From NCBI GenBank assembly GCA_026387435.1, contig JAPLLS010000036.1:1-34098 (forward strand): 34,098 nucleotides of DNA, read 5' to 3'. Made by a program: the position numbers and the translations under genes. Source of the DNA: Candidatus Omnitrophota bacterium (GTDB lineage Bacteria > Omnitrophota > Gorgyraeia > Gygaellales > Profunditerraquicolaceae). Under the pieces are notes generated by a model that was not told where the DNA came from, made no database searches, and saw only the letters and a list, made by a program, of their open reading frames with translations. Of this stretch, positions 3,853-23,861 are shown piece after piece (the first letter of the stretch is position 1; each line of letters opens with the position of its first letter).

Positions 3853-5070
3853 GTGGTTGAAAGAATGACAAGAAAATTGTTTTATCTGTTAATAACGCTT
3901 ATTATTCTAACCGGATGCGCGAGGATGCGCCATGCTGTGCCGGCAGATCTGGTAAGCAGGGCTCAGGTTCTGGGCGCTCCTGACGTTCGGGCTTTTAGCG
4001 ACCAACCCAGCGATATTTTCATCAATGACTTCATAAAATTACTGGAACAGGAGGAATCCGGAGGATTTTCTTTTCTTGATTTTAAAACAGAGAAAAATTA
4101 CTCCGCGCTGGCGATTTCCGGCGGGGCGGCAAAAGGCGCTTACGGTGCGGGTTTGCTTTGCGGCTGGTCAAAAGCAGGGACCCGGCCGGAGTTCCAGATC
4201 GTTACCGGGATAAGCACCGGAGCGGTAATCGGAACTTATGCTTTTTTAGGGAGCAAGTATGACGACGAATTGAAGGAATTCTATACTAAATATTCGACCA
4301 AAGATGTCTGGAAGAATAAGGGGTTATTGTCGGTCCTGCTGGGGGATTCTTTTACCAATAACAGCCCTTTGCGCAGGCTTCTGGCCCGGTATTTCGATAA
4401 AGAGTTGCTTAAAGAAGTTGCCGCCGAATACCGGAAAGGCCGCAGGTTCTATGTGGGGACTACCGATTTGGACGCTCAACGCCTGGTTATCTGGGATATG
4501 GGCAAGATCGCAAATATGGCAGACGATAACGCGTTAGAGCTGTTCCGCAAGATCATTCTGGCCTCCGCGACTATTCCCGCGGCTTTTGCTCCGGTATATT
4601 TTGATGTCAAGGTCGACGATAAGATTTATGATGAAATGCACGTTGACGGGGGAACGGTCAAGCAGGTATTTTTTCTTTATGACGTTTTGCAAGGCATTGA
4701 TAAGGCGGTCACTCAAAAGGGCATGGATACTTCCCGGATAAAATACAGTATTTTTGTGATCAGGAACGGCTTTACGCATCCTGTCTGGAAAGAAACCCCG
4801 GATACGCTTTTTTCTATCGCCGAACGGGCCATTGACACCATGACTAACGCCCAGAGTATCGGTGACCTTTATCAATTGTATACTTTTACAAGATTAGGCA
4901 AAGGGGATTTTAATCTTGCTTACATCCCGGCAACATTTAAGTCTAAATCAAAAGAGTTTTTTGATCCGGTAGAAATGCGCGAGCTTTTTGCTCTGGGATT
5001 TCAAGAGGCTTCCCAGGGTTATCAATGGAAAAAATCTCCTCCGGGGCTGGAAATAGACGAAAGGAATTGA
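3853..5070 (+). CDS. Patatin-like phospholipase, lipoprotein
   Basis: A 405-residue patatin-family serine lipase or acyl hydrolase with a Ser-Asp dyad. The oxyanion loop SGGAAKGAYGAG is at about residues 89-100, the nucleophile elbow GISTG at 119-123 (Ser121), and the catalytic Asp in DGG at 265-267. An N-terminal lipobox LTGC (Cys22) predicts membrane anchoring by lipidation, so it probably acts on envelope lipids. Start: GTG 3853 (AGG 7 nt upstream) or ATG 3865, four codons later; both keep the signal peptide. The stop overlaps the start of the P-type ATPase (TGATG), implying translational coupling, although a functional link between the two is not obvious. Substrate unknown. Confidence 0.9.
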   Translation: MVERMTRKLFYLLITLIILTGCARMRHAVPADLVSRAQVLGAPDVRAFSDQPSDIFINDFIKLLEQEESGGFSFLDFKTEKNYSALAISGGAAKGAYGAGLLCGWSKAGTRPEFQIVTGISTGAVIGTYAFLGSKYDDELKEFYTKYSTKDVWKNKGLLSVLLGDSFTNNSPLRRLLARYFDKELLKEVAAEYRKGRRFYVGTTDLDAQRLVIWDMGKIANMADDNALELFRKIILASATIPAAFAPVYFDVKVDDKIYDEMHVDGGTVKQVFFLYDVLQGIDKAVTQKGMDTSRIKYSIFVIRNGFTHPVWKETPDTLFSIAERAIDTMTNAQSIGDLYQLYTFTRLGKGDFNLAYIPATFKSKSKEFFDPVEMRELFALGFQEASQGYQWKKSPPGLEIDERN

Positions 5071-7634
5071 TGATGTTTGCAGGTAAAGAGATCGAAGAGA
5101 TAAAAGGTCTTTCCGGCCAAGAAGTCAAGGAAAGGTTGCAGCGGGACGGTTATAATGAGCTGCCTTCTCAGAAGAAGCGTAATGTTTTTCTGATATTTTT
5201 TAGCGTGGTTAAAGAGCCGATGTTGTTGTTGTTGATCGGCTGCGGGTCGATTTATTTCTTTTTAGGCGAGCCTAAAGATGGTCTTATGCTGCTTTCGTTT
5301 GTTTTGGTGGTGGTGGGGATTACGTTTTACCAGGAGCGCAAGACGGAACGCACTTTGGAGGCCTTGCGCGACCTTTCCAGCCCTCGGGCTCTGGTTATCC
5401 GCGACTCAAAACAAATTAGGATCGCCGGCCGGGAGGTAGTCAAGGATGACATTATAATTCTAAGAGAAGGTGACCGCGTTCCGGCGGACGCAGTGATTTT
5501 GTCCTGCTCCAATTTATCGGTCGATGAGTCTTTGTTGACCGGTGAATCGATTCATGTCCGAAAATCTGAATCGGACGGACGGCGGCCGGCCCAACGCCCC
5601 GGCGGAGACGACCTGCCTTTTGTTTTTTCCGGGACTTTGGTGGTGCAGGGCCGGGGAATAGCCAAAGTAACATCCATCGGGATCCATACCGAAATGGGCA
5701 AGATCGGTAAAGCCTTGCAGAGTATCCGCGAAGAAGATACTTTGCTGCAGAAAGAAACCAACAAGATCGTTAAGAATTTCTCCCTGGCCGGAATAACTCT
5801 TTGCCTGCTGGTAATATTGATTTACGGATTGACCAGAGGTAACTGGATCCAAGGGATCCTTTCCGGGCTGACTTTGAGCATGGCTATGCTTCCGGAAGAA
5901 TTTCCGGTCGTCCTGATCATTTTCCTTACTTTAGGAGCCTGGCGTATTTCCAAGAGTCAAGTGCTGACCCGGCGCACTCCGGCTATAGAAACCCTGGGAG
6001 CGGCCACGGTATTGTGCACGGATAAAACCGGGACTTTAACTCTTAACGCCATGCATTTGACCACTCTTTGCGTCAAAGGCGATTATTATGACGTGGACAC
6101 CAACAAATCCAGATTTTTGCCGGAGACAGTGCACGATCTGATCGAATACGGGATCCTGGCCAGCCAGAAAGACCCCTTTGACCCCATCGAGAAAGAAGTG
6201 AAGCGTCTAGGTGAATTCTATTTATCCGATTCCGAGCATATCCATAATAACTGGAGGCTGGTCCGGGAGTACACGCTTTCCAAGCAGCTTTTGGCTTTAT
6301 CGCATGTCTGGGAGTCTCCGGATAAGCTGAATTTTATTATTGCCGCTAAAGGTTCTCCTGAAGCTATAGGAGATCTTTGTCATCTTAATCATGCCCAGCA
6401 TGATCAATTGATCAAATGTATAGAGGAAATGTCCGGCCGGGGATTGCGTGTCCTGGGGGTAGCCAGGGCTTCTTTTAAAAAGACCGACCTTCCGGATGCC
6501 CAGCATGATTTTGCATTCGAATTTGTGGGCCTTTTAGGGTTTATCGACCCGATCCGGCCGACTGTCCCTTCGGCGATCAAAGAGGCGCAAGAGGCGGGAA
6601 TGAGGGTGATCATGATCACCGGTGATTATCCGGGTACCGCCAAGCATATCGCCCGGGAAATCGGTTTGAATAATCCCGACTACTGCATTACCGGAGCGGA
6701 GTTGGAAAAGATGGACCATTTACAGCTTAGGGAGAGGATCAAAACAGTCAGCGTTTTTGCCAGGGTTGTCCCCGAACAGAAGCTGGCTATCGTTAACGCC
6801 TTAAAGGCTAACGGCGGGGTTGTGGCCATGACCGGGGACGGGGTTAACGACGCTCCGGCTTTAAAGTCCGCCAATATCGGCATTGCCATGGGAGAGCGGG
6901 GGACTGACGTGGCCCGCGAAGCTTCGGCTCTGGTATTGCTGAATGATGATTTTTCCTCGATCGTTCACGCGGTAAAGCTGGGGCGGAGGATCTTTGATAA
7001 TTTAAAGAAAGCTATAGCTTATATTTTCGCTATCCATGTGCCGATCGCGGGAATGTCGTTCTTGCCGGTTTTATTCAATATGCCCATTGCGCTTTTGCCG
7101 GCGCATATAGCTTTCCTGGAATTGATCATCGACCCGGCATGTTCAACGGTATTCGAGGCCTGCCCTGAAGAGAAAAATATCATGAAAAGGCCGCCGCGCA
7201 ATCTGCGGGAGTCGCTGTTCAACAAAAAAGCTTTTCTTTTCAGCCTGCTCCAGGGGTTAAGCATCCTGGCAGTGGTGTTCGCGGTTTTTGTCCTGGCGTT
7301 ACGTTTTAATAAAGGCGAACTTGAAGCCAGAACTCTGGCATTCGCGACGCTGGTTTTCGCTAATATCATGGTGATCATGACTAATCTTTCCTGGTCCAGG
7401 AACCTTGCTGGGATCATCAAGGCCAAGAATACGGCGTTGGTGGGAGTTGTGAGCGCGGCTTTAGTCGCCCTGGGTCTGGTTATTTACGTTCCTGCCCTGC
7501 GTAGTCTCTTCCACTTTGAGATCCTTTCCGCCGAAGATGTTTTGATCACTTTTGTCAGCGGAATTGCCAGTTTAGGCTGGTTCGAAGCAGTTAAGGCCTT
7601 AAACCGAAAATTCGCTTTTTTGCCTTCCGTGTAA
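5070..7634 (+). CDS. Cation-translocating P-type ATPase (P2-like)
   Basis: An 854-residue inner-membrane ion pump. Order: N-terminal cation-ATPase domain (about 5-35, KGLSGQEVKERLQRDGYNELP), first membrane pair, actuator domain with TGES (157-160), the TM4 motif PEEFP (275-279), phosphorylation site DKTGTLT (Asp318), nucleotide-binding KGSPE (about 428), TGD (517-519), hinge TGDGVNDAP (588-596) and C-terminal membrane segments. It resembles Ca2+/P2-type pumps, but the usual TM4 PEGLP is PEEFP, so the ion is uncertain. ATG 5070 is chosen because it overlaps the patatin stop (TGATG) and has AAAGGA upstream; an ATG at 5025 would start well inside the patatin gene. All catalytic motifs are intact. 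Confidence 0.93.
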   Translation: MMFAGKEIEEIKGLSGQEVKERLQRDGYNELPSQKKRNVFLIFFSVVKEPMLLLLIGCGSIYFFLGEPKDGLMLLSFVLVVVGITFYQERKTERTLEALRDLSSPRALVIRDSKQIRIAGREVVKDDIIILREGDRVPADAVILSCSNLSVDESLLTGESIHVRKSESDGRRPAQRPGGDDLPFVFSGTLVVQGRGIAKVTSIGIHTEMGKIGKALQSIREEDTLLQKETNKIVKNFSLAGITLCLLVILIYGLTRGNWIQGILSGLTLSMAMLPEEFPVVLIIFLTLGAWRISKSQVLTRRTPAIETLGAATVLCTDKTGTLTLNAMHLTTLCVKGDYYDVDTNKSRFLPETVHDLIEYGILASQKDPFDPIEKEVKRLGEFYLSDSEHIHNNWRLVREYTLSKQLLALSHVWESPDKLNFIIAAKGSPEAIGDLCHLNHAQHDQLIKCIEEMSGRGLRVLGVARASFKKTDLPDAQHDFAFEFVGLLGFIDPIRPTVPSAIKEAQEAGMRVIMITGDYPGTAKHIAREIGLNNPDYCITGAELEKMDHLQLRERIKTVSVFARVVPEQKLAIVNALKANGGVVAMTGDGVNDAPALKSANIGIAMGERGTDVAREASALVLLNDDFSSIVHAVKLGRRIFDNLKKAIAYIFAIHVPIAGMSFLPVLFNMPIALLPAHIAFLELIIDPACSTVFEACPEEKNIMKRPPRNLRESLFNKKAFLFSLLQGLSILAVVFAVFVLALRFNKGELEARTLAFATLVFANIMVIMTNLSWSRNLAGIIKAKNTALVGVVSAALVALGLVIYVPALRSLFHFEILSAEDVLITFVSGIASLGWFEAVKALNRKFAFLPSV

Positions 7635-14384: not shown

Positions 14385-15335
14385 ATGAAACATTTCAGCC
14401 GCATATTGGCCATTGTTAGTATAAGCATTTTTGTCCTGGCATTATCAGTAAATCCGCTTATTCTGTTTGTAGCCCGCGAGCAACTTAAGGCCCGCCTGCC
14501 CGGCAGCAATGCGGCGATCTCTGGATGTCAGTTCAACTTTTTTCATAGGATTATTTTTAACGGTATCCAGGTCAGTAAAGTGCCTGTTTACGACTTACAA
14601 ATAAAATCCCTGACAATCGGTTTTAGCCCGGCATCAATGCTTAAAGCATTTCGCGGCGATATTATGGGGGCGATCGAATCTTGTGAGATTATCGTAGATT
14701 ATCTGGAGTTAAATAAAACCCGGCTGGCCGGCGGATATTTAAAAGTGTCCCGGACAAACGATAATGGAGAGATCAGCTGTTCTGAGTTTACGTATGAAAA
14801 GTTAAAAGTTTTGGGTATTAAGGGTAAAACCAGACTGAAAGACGATTATCTGTATTTTGATTCTTTATCGGGACAGCTTTTAGGCGGGATATTCCAAGGT
14901 GATAGTCTTATCAAGCTTGACTCAAACCTGGGGTATCAGTTGAGAGTGGATTTTACCAACCTCGATCTGGATACTTTCATGAAAGATTTTGCTTTAGATG
15001 AAAAAGCCGAGGTCAGTGGTAAAGTGAACGGCTTCCTGGAATTGCAGGGAGATAATCAGGGGTTAGAAGTTCTGGAGGGGAATTTAGGCTCCGGTAAAGA
15101 GGGAGGGGTATTGACCATCAAAGACACCCAATTTCTCCAGAATATGGCTCGCTCCTCCGGCCAGGCTTTAGATTTAGTAGTGGAAAGTTTTAAAAATTAC
15201 CGTTATAATACCAATAAAACCACTTTATCGCTTGAAGACAATAACATTGTTTTTCTGGTAAACTTAGACGGCAGCGCAGGCAAACGCAGTTTGAATATTA
15301 CTTTACACAATTTTAATCCCGGGAGGATAAAATGA
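14385..15335 (+). CDS. YdbH-like AsmA-superfamily envelope protein (short)
   Basis: A 316-residue protein with one N-terminal membrane anchor (about 7-28) and a beta-rich periplasmic part. The C-terminal third (GGVLTIKDTQFLQNMA..., a run around VVESFKNYRYNT, then a final FLVNLDGSAGKRSLNITLHNFNPG strand) resembles the end of YdbH, one of the AsmA-like proteins that move phospholipid between the two membranes. It is far shorter than E. coli YdbH (about 880 residues), so only the distal part of the lipid groove is represented. The assignment is strengthened by the next gene, overlapping by ATGA, which encodes YnbE- and YdbL-like sequences, the known YdbH partners. Confidence 0.72.
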   Translation: MKHFSRILAIVSISIFVLALSVNPLILFVAREQLKARLPGSNAAISGCQFNFFHRIIFNGIQVSKVPVYDLQIKSLTIGFSPASMLKAFRGDIMGAIESCEIIVDYLELNKTRLAGGYLKVSRTNDNGEISCSEFTYEKLKVLGIKGKTRLKDDYLYFDSLSGQLLGGIFQGDSLIKLDSNLGYQLRVDFTNLDLDTFMKDFALDEKAEVSGKVNGFLELQGDNQGLEVLEGNLGSGKEGGVLTIKDTQFLQNMARSSGQALDLVVESFKNYRYNTNKTTLSLEDNNIVFLVNLDGSAGKRSLNITLHNFNPGRIK

Positions 15336-15901
15336 AGAAAATCCTGTTGCTGATGATGATCGCGGCGGCCATCGGTTTTGGCTGCGCGCGGGTAAATGTC
15401 GGAGGATCCAAAGAGCCGATCAAAGTTGATATTGCCATGCGCCTGGATATTTATCAGCATGTGCAGAAGGATATTGATTCTATAGAAAACATCGTTGCCG
15501 GAGATAAAGCTAAAACCGGAAAGAAGCCGGGAGATCAGAGCTGGCTTAATTTTGCGGTGGCTGAGGTTTATGCCCAGGAGGGGTTGAGCCCGGACGTGGA
15601 ACAAGCGGCTTTGCGGCGCAAAGACCGCCGCTCGTCTTTAGATTCCTGGGAAGCACAAGGCGTAGTCGGAGAAAATAAATTGGGCCTAGTGGAAATCAAA
15701 AATTCTAAACAAGTTGATAGTGCGGTTAGGGATTTGGTCCAGGTGGAAAACGCCGATCGGATGCTTATTTACCGTTCTTTGGCCCAGAAATACGGCGAAT
15801 CTTTGGAGCAGATAGAGAAGGTTTACGCGGAAAAGCTTGCTGCTCAAGCTCCTTCCGGAACGCCGGTCGAGTCTTTAAATGGAGAGTGGAAAGTAAAATA
15901 A
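15332..15901 (+). CDS. YnbE-YdbL fusion: outer-membrane lipoprotein plus DUF1318 domain
   Basis: A 189-residue lipoprotein. A signal peptide ends at Cys18 (GFGC). Residues 19-50 (NVGGSKEPIKVDIAMRLDIY) match the YnbE pattern of KEPI followed by an alternating strand. Residues about 90-189 resemble YdbL/DUF1318: a basic RRKDRRSSL helix, WEAQGVVGE, then ALVQ-like helices, YGESLEQIEKVYAEKLA and a C-terminal LNGEWKVK. In E. coli these are separate proteins encoded beside ydbH: YnbE is a lipoprotein that bridges YdbH to the outer membrane, and YdbL is a periplasmic regulator of it. Here they appear to be one polypeptide, translationally coupled to a YdbH-like protein. There is no frameshift or internal start evidence to split it. 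Confidence 0.72.
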   Translation: MKKILLLMMIAAAIGFGCARVNVGGSKEPIKVDIAMRLDIYQHVQKDIDSIENIVAGDKAKTGKKPGDQSWLNFAVAEVYAQEGLSPDVEQAALRRKDRRSSLDSWEAQGVVGENKLGLVEIKNSKQVDSAVRDLVQVENADRMLIYRSLAQKYGESLEQIEKVYAEKLAAQAPSGTPVESLNGEWKVK

Positions 15902-15968: not shown

Positions 15969-17798
15969 ATGAAAATATTTAAAATAGTGTTTATTTCATT
16001 TTTAGGGTTGATCGTTTTAACTGTGATCGCCACGGTGATATTTATTAAGACTTTTGACGTTAACCGCTACAAACCGCAGATTACTAGCGAAGCGGCTAAA
16101 GCAATGTCGCGTGGGGTTGATTTTAGAAAAGCTGATCTGGGAATTTCTTTAACTCAAGGGATAAGCTTAAAGATCAGCGATCTTTCCATCGCCGAAGACC
16201 CGGAGTTCGGTAAAGGTAATTTCTTTTCGGTTAAGGAAATTTCCGTCGGCGTGGACGCGTTTGGATATATCTTTCGGAAAAGAGTCGAAATTTCGAGTAT
16301 TATCATTAATTCTCCTCAAATAACTATCATCCGTAAGAAAGACGGCAGTATTAATGTCCAGACGATCGCCAAGCCCGCTCAAGCCGGCAAGCAGCTGCTT
16401 AAGTCGTCTCCGGCAGCCGCAGCTGTGGCTATACCGGCGATCATGATCTCTACGATCAAGGCTTTTAAAGGTACTGTTAATTATATCGATTATTCTTTTG
16501 ATCCGCCAGTCCGCCTGGAAGTCAAGGAGCTGAATTCTACGGTGAGTAAAGTTTCTTTGACCCAAGTTTTTCCTTTTACAGTCTCAGCCGCAGTTTTAAG
16601 CGATAAGGAAAACGTCTCTATTGAAGGCAAAGTGAGTTTTGATCTTAAGACTAATCAAATGACTATTTTTGAACTTAAAGGGGTATCGGAGCTCGCGGAA
16701 ATCCTGATGGCCAAGGTCCCGGCTGCGTTTCCTATGGCTAAAGGCGCGGTTTTGCCGAATAGCCTTAAAGGCAGCCTTAATTTTAATCTGGATAAAGTTA
16801 TTGCCGGTCCCGAGGGCTTAAAAACTTTGGCGGGGGAGAGTATTTTAACTAATGGCAGCCTGCAATTCAAGGAATTAGTTTCTCCGGTCCTAAACATTGA
16901 AGCGAAGGCGAAAATAACGGAGAAGAATATTGTGCTAGAGACTGCCTCCGCCAAAATTAACGAAGGCTTAATTACTGCTTCCGGCAGCCTGGAAGATTAT
17001 CCGGCTTCACAGCAATATAGTGCCGGCGTTGAAATTAAAGATCTAAAATTACAGGATATGGTATCTCAGGATAATTCTCCGGTAAAAGTCGAAGGGGTTG
17101 TTTCAGGTAAAGCCAAGGTTAAGGGCTCGGGATTTACCCCGGAAGCTTTGAAAACGGCTTTATCAGGCAGCGCCGATATTTCGATAGTCCAAGCCAAGTT
17201 TAAAGACATGAATGTCCTGCGTACAGTTTTAGATAAGATCTCTTTGATCCCCGGATTATCTCAAAGAATTGAAGCTGGTTTGCCGGACAAATATCAAAAA
17301 AAGCTTATTGCCAAGGATACGGCTTTATCGGATATTAAATTGCCGGTGGTTATCGAGAACGGCCGGCTGGTTATTACTGATTTGTCAGTAGGCGCCGATG
17401 AATTTATTTTTAAAGGAAGCGGCCAGGCGGGAATAAGCGGCAGCTATTCTTTAGAAGGGCTATTATTGATCCCATCAGATCTTTCCGCGGCCATGGTCTC
17501 TCAGGTTTCCGAATTGCAGTATCTTTTAAACGAAGAAAAACAGATTTTGATCCCGCTGAAAATCTCCGGAAAAGCCGGCGAAATGAAGTTTAATGTGGAT
17601 GGCCAGTATATCGCCCAGAAACTGGTGCAGAATCAGCTCAAGCAGCAGATCTTTAAGGCCCTGGAAAAATCCGGGGGTTCTCAAGGTTCCGCCACCGGGA
17701 CTTCCGAAGAGCAAAGTTCTGCAGGACAGCAAGGCTCGGATAAATCCTCAACCGAAGAAGCGGTAGGCAGCCTTTTACGGGGAATATTCAAGAAATAA
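15969..17798 (+). CDS. AsmA-family protein
   Basis: A 609-residue envelope protein with an N-terminal anchor (about 4-27) and the AsmA N-domain (FDVNRYKPQITSEAAKAMSRGVDF, then LSLT/GISLKISDLSI and VKEISVGVDAF). A long beta-rich body follows, and then the AsmA C-domain (about 440-560, with VIENGRLVITDLSVGADEFIFKGSG). A Ser/Gln-rich low-complexity stretch (about 570-595) precedes the tail LLRGIFKK. AsmA-type proteins form hydrophobic grooves thought to carry phospholipids to the outer membrane. It lies after the YdbH-like and YnbE-YdbL-like genes, 67 nt downstream. GGAGG precedes the ATG and may be partly masked by a hairpin. Confidence 0.9.
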   Translation: MKIFKIVFISFLGLIVLTVIATVIFIKTFDVNRYKPQITSEAAKAMSRGVDFRKADLGISLTQGISLKISDLSIAEDPEFGKGNFFSVKEISVGVDAFGYIFRKRVEISSIIINSPQITIIRKKDGSINVQTIAKPAQAGKQLLKSSPAAAAVAIPAIMISTIKAFKGTVNYIDYSFDPPVRLEVKELNSTVSKVSLTQVFPFTVSAAVLSDKENVSIEGKVSFDLKTNQMTIFELKGVSELAEILMAKVPAAFPMAKGAVLPNSLKGSLNFNLDKVIAGPEGLKTLAGESILTNGSLQFKELVSPVLNIEAKAKITEKNIVLETASAKINEGLITASGSLEDYPASQQYSAGVEIKDLKLQDMVSQDNSPVKVEGVVSGKAKVKGSGFTPEALKTALSGSADISIVQAKFKDMNVLRTVLDKISLIPGLSQRIEAGLPDKYQKKLIAKDTALSDIKLPVVIENGRLVITDLSVGADEFIFKGSGQAGISGSYSLEGLLLIPSDLSAAMVSQVSELQYLLNEEKQILIPLKISGKAGEMKFNVDGQYIAQKLVQNQLKQQIFKALEKSGGSQGSATGTSEEQSSAGQQGSDKSSTEEAVGSLLRGIFKK

Positions 17799-18222: not shown

Positions 18223-19935
18223 ATTTGGCCATTACTGAGAAAGATCGGGATTATCTTCTTTAGAGTTATTTTAGGAATCGGCGTTTTCTATTTATTCCTC
18301 GCTTTTATTGTTATTCCTGTCACCGCGCCCTGGATAGTTAGTTCCCAGGCCAGCAAGCTTATTAATCATCCTGTGTCCGTTCGTTCAGTCTGGTTTAACC
18401 CGTTTTTGCTCAAAGTCAGCGTAAACGGATTGCAGATCATGGACGCGGACAAGAAACTCATGGTAGGTTTTGATAAATTCTGGCTGGACGCCAGTTTCTT
18501 AAGTCTGTTTAAGAAAGTTTATCAGGTTGAATCCATTGGTATTAACGGGTTTACGGTCAATGTTGCGCTTCTGCCGGGAAACAAAATAAACCTTCTGGAG
18601 CTGATCCCCAAAGATCTTCAGCCAGCCGCAAAACCGGATGGGGGTCAATCGAGCGCAGAAAAGTCCAAAGTTTCTAAAGTCGAGGCTGGCGGCCAGAAAG
18701 CTGCGGTTGCAGCGCCTTCGTCTCAACCAATTCCTGGAATAATCGTAAATTCGATCAGTTTAAAGCAAGGCAAAGTTTCGTTGGTTGATCGGACTGTAAC
18801 TCCGAATTTCTCAACTACCTTAAGCGCTATCGATATCAACGTGACCAACTTTTCCACTGATCCCCGCAGTCAAACCAAGGTGGTTATGCAGGCTAAACTG
18901 GATGAGAAAGGGTCAATTTCAGCGGAGGCTATGCTTAAACCGTTCCTGCAGCCCATGGAACTGGAAACTACGTTCTCTCTCAATGATTATGCCTTGAAAG
19001 TCCTGACTCCTTATGTCGGCAAATACACCGGCCGCGGGGTTAAAGAGGGAAAACTTGATTTGAAAATGGATTACCGGATCTCCGGCAACAAGATCAACGC
19101 CCGGCATAAGCTGCTGGTGCAGCATTTTGATTTCGGGCAAAAAGTTGAAAGTAAAGACGCTTTGCCTTTACCGTTCGGATTGGCAGTGGCGCTTCTCGAG
19201 GATCCCCAGGGGCGGATCGATATCTCTTTGCCGGTCAAGGGTGACATGAGCCAGCCGGAATTCCAGTATTTCCATCTTCTCGGCCGGGTGGTCAAAAACT
19301 TTTTTCTTAAACTGGTGACTTCGCCGTTTATGTCGCTGGTTTCGATGATGGGCTCTGAATCCGGAACGGAAGAATTAGGTTACGTGTCTTTTGAGCCCGG
19401 GAAGGCCGAATTAAGCGAACCGGTTAAAGAAAAATTAAAGGCTATTCTTAATGTTTTAAAACAGCGTCCGAAACTTTCAATCGAAATCAACGGTACTTAT
19501 GATCCCGATGCCGATTGGAAGACGATCAAAACCGAGGCTTATGAAAATGAATTCAAGGCCAAAAGAAAAGAATCAGCCTGGACCGATTTTCGTTTGATCG
19601 AAGACATGTATAAGATCCATTTTGGTTTACACGCTTATTGGAGATTCGCCAGGGATTATCAAGCTAAAGGCCATACCGAGGATGAATTTAAAACCGAGAT
19701 GAGGCGCCAAATTATCGAGGGGGGACAGCCGGACAGAGCGGCTCTTGAACAACTCGCCCAGGCCCGGGCTAAATCAGTCTATGATTTTATAATTGCCGCC
19801 GGTTTTGAAAAAGAGCGTTTAAGTATCGGCCCGAGCCGTCAGACCCAGAGCAGTGTCGGGGCGGTTCCGCTGGAGTTTACTTTGACCGTTTTCGGCGAGT
19901 CCAAGGAGCCTGAAGCTAAACCAGTCAGCCCTTAA
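18223..19935 (+). CDS. DUF748 (AsmA-related) envelope protein, probable AUU start
   Basis: A 570-residue protein. The reading frame continues upstream of the first conventional start (GTG 18373) and encodes exactly what the family needs: a membrane anchor (IIFFRVILGIGVFYLFLAF) followed by SSQASKLINHPVSVRSVWFNPF, the DUF748 N-terminal signature. GGGGG (18211-18215) lies 7 nt before ATT 18223, so initiation at AUU is the best reading. Starting at 18373 would delete the anchor. The body contains DUF748 strands, a spacer rich in Lys/Ser/Gly (about 145-165) and the C-terminal FEPGKAELSEPVKEKLKAILNVL, an OmpA-like-looking segment common in this family. Likely part of envelope lipid or surface assembly. 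Confidence 0.82.
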   Translation: MWPLLRKIGIIFFRVILGIGVFYLFLAFIVIPVTAPWIVSSQASKLINHPVSVRSVWFNPFLLKVSVNGLQIMDADKKLMVGFDKFWLDASFLSLFKKVYQVESIGINGFTVNVALLPGNKINLLELIPKDLQPAAKPDGGQSSAEKSKVSKVEAGGQKAAVAAPSSQPIPGIIVNSISLKQGKVSLVDRTVTPNFSTTLSAIDINVTNFSTDPRSQTKVVMQAKLDEKGSISAEAMLKPFLQPMELETTFSLNDYALKVLTPYVGKYTGRGVKEGKLDLKMDYRISGNKINARHKLLVQHFDFGQKVESKDALPLPFGLAVALLEDPQGRIDISLPVKGDMSQPEFQYFHLLGRVVKNFFLKLVTSPFMSLVSMMGSESGTEELGYVSFEPGKAELSEPVKEKLKAILNVLKQRPKLSIEINGTYDPDADWKTIKTEAYENEFKAKRKESAWTDFRLIEDMYKIHFGLHAYWRFARDYQAKGHTEDEFKTEMRRQIIEGGQPDRAALEQLAQARAKSVYDFIIAAGFEKERLSIGPSRQTQSSVGAVPLEFTLTVFGESKEPEAKPVSP

Positions 19936-21281: not shown

Positions 21282-23861
21282 ATGAAAAGGTTATTTTATT
21301 TTTGGGCTATAGTTTTTATGATCGGGTTCATTTTTGATCCGGGTTTTGCTTACGAACTTCCGAACAATGATCCCCAGGCCCAGTATTTCGGTATTTTTGG
21401 GCTCCAAGGCAGCCGCTTCGACGGTAGTGATAAGGCAAATCCCGACCAGGTCATTTATTTTGATGTTCCGGAGAACCAGGCATCCGGATTCATTATCGAT
21501 GTTTTTGATCCTGATACAGGCGGTAAGCTGGATCAGAAAGATCCCGGAAAAGAAAATTGGGAGACGATCTTCCAGTTCGCTGTCTACGGGAAAGAAGATG
21601 GTTTATTAGCTAAAAAAAGCTTCAGCGATTCTGTGGAGTATGACCGGGCTTATTACCGGTTCGGGCCTTATCCAAAGGAAATGGGTAGCAAGATCAAGGG
21701 ATTTTACCGGTTTAAACTGGTGGTCAGTCCAATCGAGACTTTAATATTAAAAGGTGATGATCTGAATTTGTTCAGAGTCCGGGTTTATCCGGAAGATGTT
21801 AAGGCTTTTTCGGAAAAGATCTCTTTGCGGCTTCCTGCTCATAAAAATGAAGAAATGTATTTTTATCCTGAAATACCCGCCGGGGAAAGCGAAATCATCG
21901 TCGAGAATTATGACCTGGATCCTGAGGGCGGTTCAGTAAGATTGTATGATCCGTTGACTCAAAAAGATTACCAGATCGATAATTCCGGATCCGGGGTTTG
22001 GGCACAGACAACAGTTCATGTCAGTCCTTCTGACCAGCCCCGTTGTCTGGAGTATATTATTACCAAGAAAACACAGCAATACGGCAATGCTTCCATCCGG
22101 GTCAAAGACCGTAAAGGCCATGCGTTGCCGATTTATTACTCGCAAAAGCCGCACAAAGCTCTACCCGCAGCGGCTGTTGTCAGCATTCCCATAAAAACCA
22201 AGGAAGTTAAAATTGTTTTAGTCAAAAAGTCATCCAATGTCGAGCAAAAAAGCCCGGTTATTGCCCCGCCAATGAAGACGACAAGTATGCAATGTAACAA
22301 ATTCATCTTTGACGGAACAGGTTCCTATGACCCCAACAACGAGAAGTTGTCTTTTTTCTGGGACTTCGGAGATTCGGCTACAAGCGTTGAGCCGGTGGTC
22401 ACTCACGTTTTCGAAAAAGGAGGCCAATATACGGTTACACTCACTGTAAAAGACAGCTCCGGGCTTAAATGCGATAGCTCCAGCAAAACTCAGGTCGTAA
22501 ACGTGAATATACCGCCTGTGGCGGAATTTATTGCTCCTGAAACAGCCTGTGTTAACCAGGAAATTGTCTTTGATGCCAGTTCTACTACTGATGATACTCC
22601 GGAAAACCTGACCTATTTTTGGGATTTCGCAGATGGCACTACGGGTGAAGGTAAACTAATCACTAAAAAATTCACTAAGGGCGGTATGTATAGTGTGAAC
22701 TTGACAGTCAATGACAATGCTAATACTGCCCGCAGCAAAGTTTCCCTAAACAAGCCGATCTTGGTTAATACTCCGCCAATTGCCCGGGCCGGAGGCGATA
22801 TCCGGATGTGCGTTCTTTTGAATAAGGATTATGAGGTGGTTTTTGACGGTGGTAAATCAATTGACGCCGACGGGGATACCTTGAGTTATTCCTGGGATTT
22901 TGGAGACGGAGAAAGTGGAACGGGCAAGAAAGTAACTCATGTGTATAAGACCGGGGGATCGTATATCGCTAAACTAACTGTTAATGACGGGCGCAGCTCG
23001 GTCTGTTCAACCAGCGAAGAGACGATCAGCGTCGTCTTGAATAAACAGCCCGTGGCCGTAGCCGGAGCGGACCAGTCAGCTTGTCCCGGCCAAGAAGTTA
23101 TTTTTGACGGAACCGGTTCGAGCGATGCCGATAAAGACGCGCTTACCTACACCTGGGACTTTGGTGACGGCGCGACCTCAGAGGGGGAGCAGGCCCGGCA
23201 TAATTTCGAAAAACCCGGTAAATACCGCGTAGTCCTTTCAATCGATGACGGAAGACAGACTTTGTGTTCTTCCGCGAAGAGCGGCCTGAACGTGTTTGTC
23301 AACACTCCGCCTAAAGCGGCGCTGGAAAAAGTCGCTGCGGTATGCGTAGGTAGTAATGTCAAGTTTGACGCTTCCCGGACCAGCGGGGTGGGCATAGATA
23401 GTTACAAATATACCTGGGATTTCGGGGATGGCACAGTCATCGAAGGCGGTAAGAAAGCCGCCCATGAATACAAAAAGGGAGGTAAATTCACGGTAAAAGT
23501 CATCGTGGACGATAAACGTAATACTCCCTGTTCCGCTGATTCGGCCAGTATCGAAGTTACGGTGAATACTCCGCCAAAAGCAGTAGGCCGGGCTGATTTC
23601 GCCTGCTGTATTGATACGGATTCTGTCTTTGACGGAACAGCTTCATCTGATGCCGACGGCGACAGCCTGACTTATCAGTGGGAGTTTGGAGACGGAGGGA
23701 CTGCCCAGAGCGTAAAAGCGGCACACCGGTATAATAAAGGCGGGGTCTATACTGTTACCTTGAAAGTAGACGATAATTCCCAAACAGCGTGCAGCAGCTC
23801 GCAAACGTCATTCAAGGTGCGGATCAACGAACAGCCGGTTCCGGTGATCAAAGTAAAGTAA
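21282..23861 (+). CDS. Secreted protein with six tandem PKD domains
   Basis: An 859-residue exported protein. The signal peptide ends around GFA (residue 23). Residues 24-320 are a beta-rich region that I do not recognise (FDVPENQASGFIIDVFDPDTGG). From about 335 to the end lie six PKD (immunoglobulin-like) repeats with the motif WDFGDG at roughly residues 359 (WDFGDS), 447 (WDFADG), 537, 625, 711 and 800 (WEFGDG), spaced about 88 residues. Each repeat carries a cysteine near its start and another near its end (CS/CD), except the second repeat, which lacks the latter. No C-terminal anchor or sorting domain is seen. PKD arrays usually mediate protein or glycan contacts at the surface. AAGGAGGGGG precedes the ATG. 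Confidence 0.93.
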   Translation: MKRLFYFWAIVFMIGFIFDPGFAYELPNNDPQAQYFGIFGLQGSRFDGSDKANPDQVIYFDVPENQASGFIIDVFDPDTGGKLDQKDPGKENWETIFQFAVYGKEDGLLAKKSFSDSVEYDRAYYRFGPYPKEMGSKIKGFYRFKLVVSPIETLILKGDDLNLFRVRVYPEDVKAFSEKISLRLPAHKNEEMYFYPEIPAGESEIIVENYDLDPEGGSVRLYDPLTQKDYQIDNSGSGVWAQTTVHVSPSDQPRCLEYIITKKTQQYGNASIRVKDRKGHALPIYYSQKPHKALPAAAVVSIPIKTKEVKIVLVKKSSNVEQKSPVIAPPMKTTSMQCNKFIFDGTGSYDPNNEKLSFFWDFGDSATSVEPVVTHVFEKGGQYTVTLTVKDSSGLKCDSSSKTQVVNVNIPPVAEFIAPETACVNQEIVFDASSTTDDTPENLTYFWDFADGTTGEGKLITKKFTKGGMYSVNLTVNDNANTARSKVSLNKPILVNTPPIARAGGDIRMCVLLNKDYEVVFDGGKSIDADGDTLSYSWDFGDGESGTGKKVTHVYKTGGSYIAKLTVNDGRSSVCSTSEETISVVLNKQPVAVAGADQSACPGQEVIFDGTGSSDADKDALTYTWDFGDGATSEGEQARHNFEKPGKYRVVLSIDDGRQTLCSSAKSGLNVFVNTPPKAALEKVAAVCVGSNVKFDASRTSGVGIDSYKYTWDFGDGTVIEGGKKAAHEYKKGGKFTVKVIVDDKRNTPCSADSASIEVTVNTPPKAVGRADFACCIDTDSVFDGTASSDADGDSLTYQWEFGDGGTAQSVKAAHRYNKGGVYTVTLKVDDNSQTACSSSQTSFKVRINEQPVPVIKVK

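Follow-up and report, generated by a model that had tools for sequence, protein, structure and literature searches.

A YnbE-YdbL fusion lipoprotein encoded beside a short YdbH-like protein in Omnitrophota, with a conserved signal-peptidase-I-type site between its halves

Proteins proposed to transport phospholipids to the outer membrane include YdbH-type bridges, and the role of YdbL is known only in outline. In E. coli, YdbL is said to limit the stacking of YnbE. YdbH, YnbE and YdbL are reportedly encoded there by a ydbH-ynbE-ydbL operon (Kumar, Davis and Ruiz, PNAS 2024, as cited in PMC12977461). It has been reported that E. coli YdbH and YnbE interact (PMC12977461, PMC11784454), that the translation of ydbH and ynbE is coupled by termination-reinitiation (PMC10666635), and that YdbH, TamB and YhdP are mutually redundant (PMC8593681).

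A related locus was analyzed in a contig of 34,098 nt from the genome of an uncultured Omnitrophota bacterium (the window), where a YdbH-like gene (ORF1) is followed by a gene that joins a YnbE-like lipoprotein segment to a YdbL domain (ORF2). This locus is a real and conserved variant of the known YdbH-YnbE-YdbL module, and its fusion is not unique to the present genome. ORF1 and ORF2 probably represent the Omnitrophota version of the inter-membrane phospholipid bridge of E. coli, with ynbE and ydbL in one gene. No description of a YnbE-YdbL fusion was found in the literature searched, outside of which most subscription papers lay.

Several features are shared with the E. coli system, including the three protein families, the gene order, a lipoprotein as the product of the second gene, the YdbL fold (PDB 28oj), and the 4-nt overlap of ydbH and ynbE (in L205 of E. 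coli, ynbE begins at 5688, before ydbH stops at 5691). On the other hand, ynbE and ydbL are fused here, YdbH has 316 instead of 879 aa, and an internal signal-peptidase-like site is present. The three-gene loci of sister Omnitrophota (e.g., L016, L020, L036) resemble the window in their short YdbH (approximately 340 aa), adjacent gene order and DUF1318, but have separate ynbE and ydbL genes, a full signal peptide on YdbL, a YnbE of the VDIxGL type, and a YdbH without the GxR-H end. The fusions of Verrucomicrobiota (Spartobacteria, Chthoniobacterales and Verrucomicrobium; loci L095-L099, L101-L103, L105-L106, L108-L109, L113, L119 and L124) also carry a lipobox, a YnbE half of the KVDIAMRLDVYQH type and DUF1318 in one chain, 3' of a YdbH with a G..G.R-H end. 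They differ in the length of YdbH (661-939 aa) and in a linker that lacks the A-x-A site described below.

The YdbH-like protein and the fusion lipoprotein

The two open reading frames and their overlap lie where the initial annotation had placed them, and the following features were assigned:

14385..15335, + strand: ORF1, YdbH-like inner-membrane-anchored beta-groove protein, 316 aa (ORF; PF11739 above cut-off; AF2 model)
14388..14495, + strand: N-terminal membrane helix of ORF1, aa 2-37 (AF2/DSSP)
14934..15275, + strand: ORF1 segment aligned with positions 740-851 of the 893 in the Pfam YdbH-like profile, its C-terminal part
15279..15305, + strand: last beta-strand of ORF1, aa 299-307, inside the end motif GSAGKRSLNITLHNF (AF2 strand)
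15332..15335, + strand: ATGA, 4-nt overlap of ORF1 stop and ORF2 start, the arrangement of translational coupling known from ydbH-ynbE of E. coli
15332..15901, + strand: ORF2, YnbE-YdbL fusion lipoprotein precursor, 189 aa (ORF; single copy in the genome)
15332..15385, + strand: lipoprotein signal peptide with lipobox IGFGC, Cys18 and Ala at +2 (sequence; Cys in 82/82 complete relatives)
15383..15502, + strand: YnbE-like segment, aa 18-57, CARVNVGGSKEPIKVDIAMRLDIYQHVQKDIDSIENIVAG (hhalign above shuffled controls)
15503..15565, + strand: variable low-confidence linker, aa 58-78, with the weak hydrophobic run SWLNFAV (site rates; pLDDT)
15566..15580, + strand: V-Y-A followed by Q-E, aa 79-83, signal-peptidase-I-type site with a putative cut after Ala81
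15626..15898, + strand: DUF1318/YdbL domain, aa 99-189 (PF07027; PDB 28oj)

The proposed YdbH-like identity of ORF1 was borne out by PF11739, which matches aa 184-297 (E 5.1e-8; 32.7 bits against a curated cut-off of 26.3) and has no other match in this genome. The AF2 model of ORF1, built from a 40-sequence alignment (pLDDT 90.9, pTM 0.81), has one long helix at aa 2-37 and then approximately 16 longer strands, i.e., an N-terminal membrane anchor with a long beta-groove of the AsmA/RBG type. The last strand (aa 299-307), directly followed by a low-confidence tail, is the proposed edge for strand addition by YnbE. Of 40 YdbH-like proteins from Omnitrophota, no more than 23 match PF11739 at E 0.01 and 19 match AsmA, which marks these proteins as divergent members. 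A Foldseek search of ORF1 against the PDB returned nothing at E <= 0.001, and a PDB sequence search returned TamB alone (E 0.012).

ORF1 had been described as unusually short, which is true in comparison with the 879 aa of E. coli YdbH. Within Omnitrophota it is not, since the median YdbH length is 372 aa beside fusions and 340 aa beside separate genes; a peculiarity of the present locus was thus rejected in favor of a phylum-wide short length. On its own, ORF1 does not seem long enough to bridge a periplasm as wide as that of E. coli. With Omnitrophota YdbHs less than half as long as that of E. coli, how a short groove reaches the outer membrane becomes testable, for example by way of several stacked YnbE strands.

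The C-terminal half of ORF2 (aa 99-189) matches PF07027 (DUF1318/YdbL) with an E of 8.8e-19. It also agrees with E. coli YdbL, whose crystal structure (28oj) is named a probable chaperone-like protein in the PDB, both by profile (E 3.6e-14) and by fold (TM-score 0.89 by target length, rmsd 1.3). For the N-terminal half, PF13617 (YnbE) found no match in ORF2 by HMMER, either by hmmscan or by a profile search of genomes, so the profile comparison suggested earlier succeeded with HMMER for YdbL only; hhalign was positive for YnbE. A profile of the mature N-half from 84 fusions scored 53.5 against separate Omnitrophota YnbE and 27.7 against E. coli YnbE, the maxima of 100 column shuffles per comparison being 14.2 and 15.3, and the score against Desulfobacterota YnbE was weak (17.7 vs 15.2). 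None of the 82 fusions that are complete at the N-end lacks the lipobox Cys, and their +2 residue is mostly Ala; ORF2 is, as expected of a YnbE, a lipoprotein with a non-Asp +2 residue directly 3' of YdbH. Taken together, the PF11739 and PF07027 matches, the hhalign scores above shuffles and the lipobox Cys indicate that the identities first given to all parts of ORF1 and ORF2 are right.

In the AF2 model of ORF2 (68 sequences; pLDDT 86.5, pTM 0.73), confidence exceeds 95 in the DUF1318 domain and is near 90 in a helix at aa 32-56, with low block means (55-69) around aa 21-40 and 61-80, the latter at 55-60. Residues 32-56 belong to the YnbE segment and are predicted as helix rather than strand in ORF2 alone, a point against their docking as a strand; the docked form of YnbE may be missed by a prediction for an isolated chain.

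Distribution and origin of the fusions

DUF1318 was found in 134 of 384 Omnitrophota genomes, in two layouts. Sister families have three separate genes, encoding a short YdbH, a YnbE lipoprotein that is likewise short (CTVKAVGDPNRPITINAH...) and a YdbL of approximately 135 aa with a normal signal peptide, and other families, including that of the window, have the YnbE-YdbL fusion. The survey of fusions that had been proposed yielded 84 distinct proteins in Omnitrophota, most of them with YdbH immediately 5' and often with the 4-nt overlap, as well as 15 in Verrucomicrobiota and three in Chlamydiota. The presence of 84 homologous fusions in independent MAGs excludes chance and an assembly or frameshift artefact. 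Loci of Desulfobacterota and similar groups have three genes and a YdbH of approximately 800 aa. A search of the three Chlamydiota genomes with the Omnitrophota YdbH profile, which may be too distant for them, brought up no YdbH.

A DUF1318-domain tree with rough support, built from 163 rows and 109 columns, calls for four changes of the fused state in Omnitrophota, at least three of which are forced by well-supported branches. The Verrucomicrobiota fusions form a clade of their own. Since the fusions L044/L131/L167 and L171 are nested within the three-gene group, the YnbE-YdbL fusion probably arose more than once in Omnitrophota. Such repeated natural joining argues that both proteins act as a unit, and the fusion offers a ready-made construct for studying the chaperone-client control of YnbE.

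A number of variant loci were also observed. In two genomes of family f4 (L012/L090 and L013/L092), a radical-SAM gene lies between YdbH and the fusion. L198 (G336:C51; 278 aa) continues into a thioredoxin-like segment (FSMYCPYCQEEAPEV) and is apparently a three-part protein, with an open frame of 365 aa. In L184 (G129:C1 410388-412666), the lipobox Cys and the YnbE strand have decayed, and an A-W-A site and the DUF1318 domain are kept. The 164-aa fusion L093/L253 (G230:C1) ends early (RVYAERLQR, then stop), without the last 25 or so residues of DUF1318. L136 and L155, possibly paralogues, carry DUF1318 behind a short leader that includes a Cys (SCREHGRRLHKT and ACREHEIRLHKT, respectively) and have no YnbE segment. 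L123 of Zixiibacteriota is a lipoprotein with a different N-half (CSIKPPEVTITGEKTALE) before DUF1318, possibly another kind of fusion, and starts 10 nt after the gene for a 1091-aa membrane-anchored protein.

The join between the two halves

The linker of all 84 Omnitrophota fusions contains an A/V/I-x-A site, with Q, E, A or D as the usual next residue. Based on counts taken from the alignment rather than by pattern search, position -3 is A in 74, V in nine and I in one; position -2 is Y in 73, H in four, W and F in three each, and L in one; position -1 is A in all 84; and position +1 is Q in 52, E in 13, A in nine, D in seven, S in two and I in one. On the tree of fusions, site -1 ranks in the 2nd percentile of rates, within the slowest class, and site -3 in the 16th, and most of the preceding linker (aa 58-78) belongs to the fastest class; among relatives, the linker varies from 13 to 24 aa. 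It is concluded from these patterns that a functional constraint acts on the join site, which may be a cut site or a docking element. The conserved join site of the Omnitrophota fusions is the new element here.

The initial annotation had placed the two halves in one chain. This is true for the gene; given the conserved signal-peptidase-I-type site between the halves, the mature product may be two proteins. The ORF2 precursor could remain whole as a tethered client and chaperone, or cleavage after Ala81 could separate YdbL from a YnbE lipoprotein; the two outcomes are considered about equally likely. The frozen join site makes the question of fusion or polyprotein directly testable.

Cleavage after Ala81 is plausible. 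It would be made by signal peptidase I, or by a protease with the same -3/-1 rule, and would yield a short outer-membrane YnbE lipoprotein and a free periplasmic YdbL, so that the fusion would fix their stoichiometry and the timing of export instead of tethering them. Consistent with such a polyprotein, the residues typical of a signal peptidase I site are found at -1 and -3 with a freer -2, and their slow rates stand amid a fast linker. The motif lies at the position of the signal-peptide cut of separate YdbLs, and it is kept in the separately originated fusions (L044, L131, L167; L171) as well as in those of Chlamydiota, which have a clearer internal signal-like stretch (SMLAKTVLIVQNLGVSTAYAAK). 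AF2 places no secondary structure on the motif. Signal-peptide ends sampled from approximately 400 kb of the same genome resemble the join (e.g., AVA followed by QE, VFA by QQ and ACA by QD), and a signal peptidase I gene is present in the genome. Moreover, none of the 15 Verrucomicrobiota fusions has such an A-x-A site in the linker, which implies that the fold can do without it.

Against cleavage, the join lacks an h-region of signal-peptide strength. The best 8-residue hydropathy before the site has a median of 1.33 in the fusions vs 3.03 in the signal peptides of separate YdbLs; it is 1.15 in the window and below 1.0 in 22 of the 84 fusions, which indicates that a canonical membrane-inserted signal peptide is absent in many of them. 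A product of a bacterial gene fusion that is split at an internal signal-peptide site is known from the cytochrome b/c1 precursor FbcH of Bradyrhizobium, a protein unrelated to ORF2 that has a full hydrophobic signal. A polyprotein that releases YnbE and its dedicated chaperone YdbL, reached by more than one fusion event in Omnitrophota, is a serious but tentative reading, held at somewhat less than even chances; if it is true, ORF2 would represent a rare case of a bacterial polyprotein cut internally at a signal-peptidase-type site.

Alternatively, and with the same slightly less than even probability, the chain may stay uncut, so that YdbL would travel to the outer membrane joined to YnbE and, within the same molecule, guard it against stacking, while AYAQE would serve in structure or docking. 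Given that the Verrucomicrobiota fusions consist of the same two halves with a linker that lacks the site, such a tether seems workable. The weak hydrophobic stretch before the site is also in keeping with a permanent tether, as is the confident AF2 helix at aa 32-56, which may pack against the YdbL domain. However, a tether leaves unexplained why just -3 (A/V/I) and -1 (A) are frozen in a fast-evolving, low-confidence linker.

It is unlikely that AYAQE is a functionless remnant of the YdbL signal peptide. Its position at the old cut site and the decay of the hydrophobic stretch would suit a remnant, but a remnant would be expected to drift like the surrounding linker, and -1, in the lowest class of rates, evolves as slowly as residues of the DUF1318 core throughout a deep sample of fusions.

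Pairing of YdbH with YnbE

The type of the YnbE segment and the end of the adjacent YdbH were found to occur together. YnbE halves with the YQH signature adjoin YdbHs that end in G..G[KES]R-strand-H[DN] in 58 of 70 Omnitrophota loci by a strict pattern, and most of the remaining 12 have the same end as judged by eye; in Verrucomicrobiota, this pairing was seen in 10 of 10. Non-YQH YnbEs adjoin YdbHs without the G..G[KES]R-strand-H end in 37 of 39 separate Omnitrophota loci, the two exceptions having apparently unrelated histidines. In the three cases where YdbH is readable next to a separately originated fusion, a non-YQH YnbE is combined with a YdbH that lacks the GxR-H end. E. coli YdbH has a stretch, GKSGTVNLNYHH, comparable to the GxR-H end. 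That the two types track the pairing and not the fusion supports a contact between the C-terminal end of YdbH and the YnbE segment; the clade structure restricts how many of these cases are independent. The initial annotation had taken the fused proteins for working partners, a view that gains support from the fusion itself, from the shared overlap and from this co-segregation.

Based on these data, the following mechanism may be proposed for ORF1 and ORF2 as a YdbH-YnbE-YdbL bridge. By its family match and modelled fold, ORF1 is an inner-membrane-anchored beta-groove, and it would transfer lipid. ORF2 would be exported as a lipoprotein on the basis of its lipobox, presumably to the outer membrane, as suggested by Ala at +2 and by E. 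coli YnbE. At the outer membrane, judging by the co-segregating types, the YnbE segment most likely extends ORF1 by adding to its last strand. The YdbL half, made one-to-one with its client, would prevent YnbE from stacking on itself until docking, as in the role proposed for YdbL in E. coli.

That ORF1 is instead a generic AsmA-like protein beside an unrelated DUF1318 lipoprotein, as the AsmA matches in nearly half of the homologues and the failure of PF13617 in HMMER might suggest, is very improbable and was rejected on the PF11739 score above cut-off, the conserved gene order and overlap, the YnbE profile match and the co-segregation of end types.

Further genes of interest were noted in the window. 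Two AsmA-superfamily genes lie downstream of ORF2, at 15969-17798 (AsmA) and 18373-19935 (DUF748 with an OmpA-like part). A conserved operon of the fusion with such genes was considered and rejected, as neither adjoins the fusion in 50 Omnitrophota loci. In addition, positions 3853-5070 encode a lipoprotein with a patatin-like look (GISTGA motif), possibly a lipase, and positions 21282-23861 encode a secreted protein with several PKD-like repeats (FDGTGSSDADKDALTYTWDFGDG).
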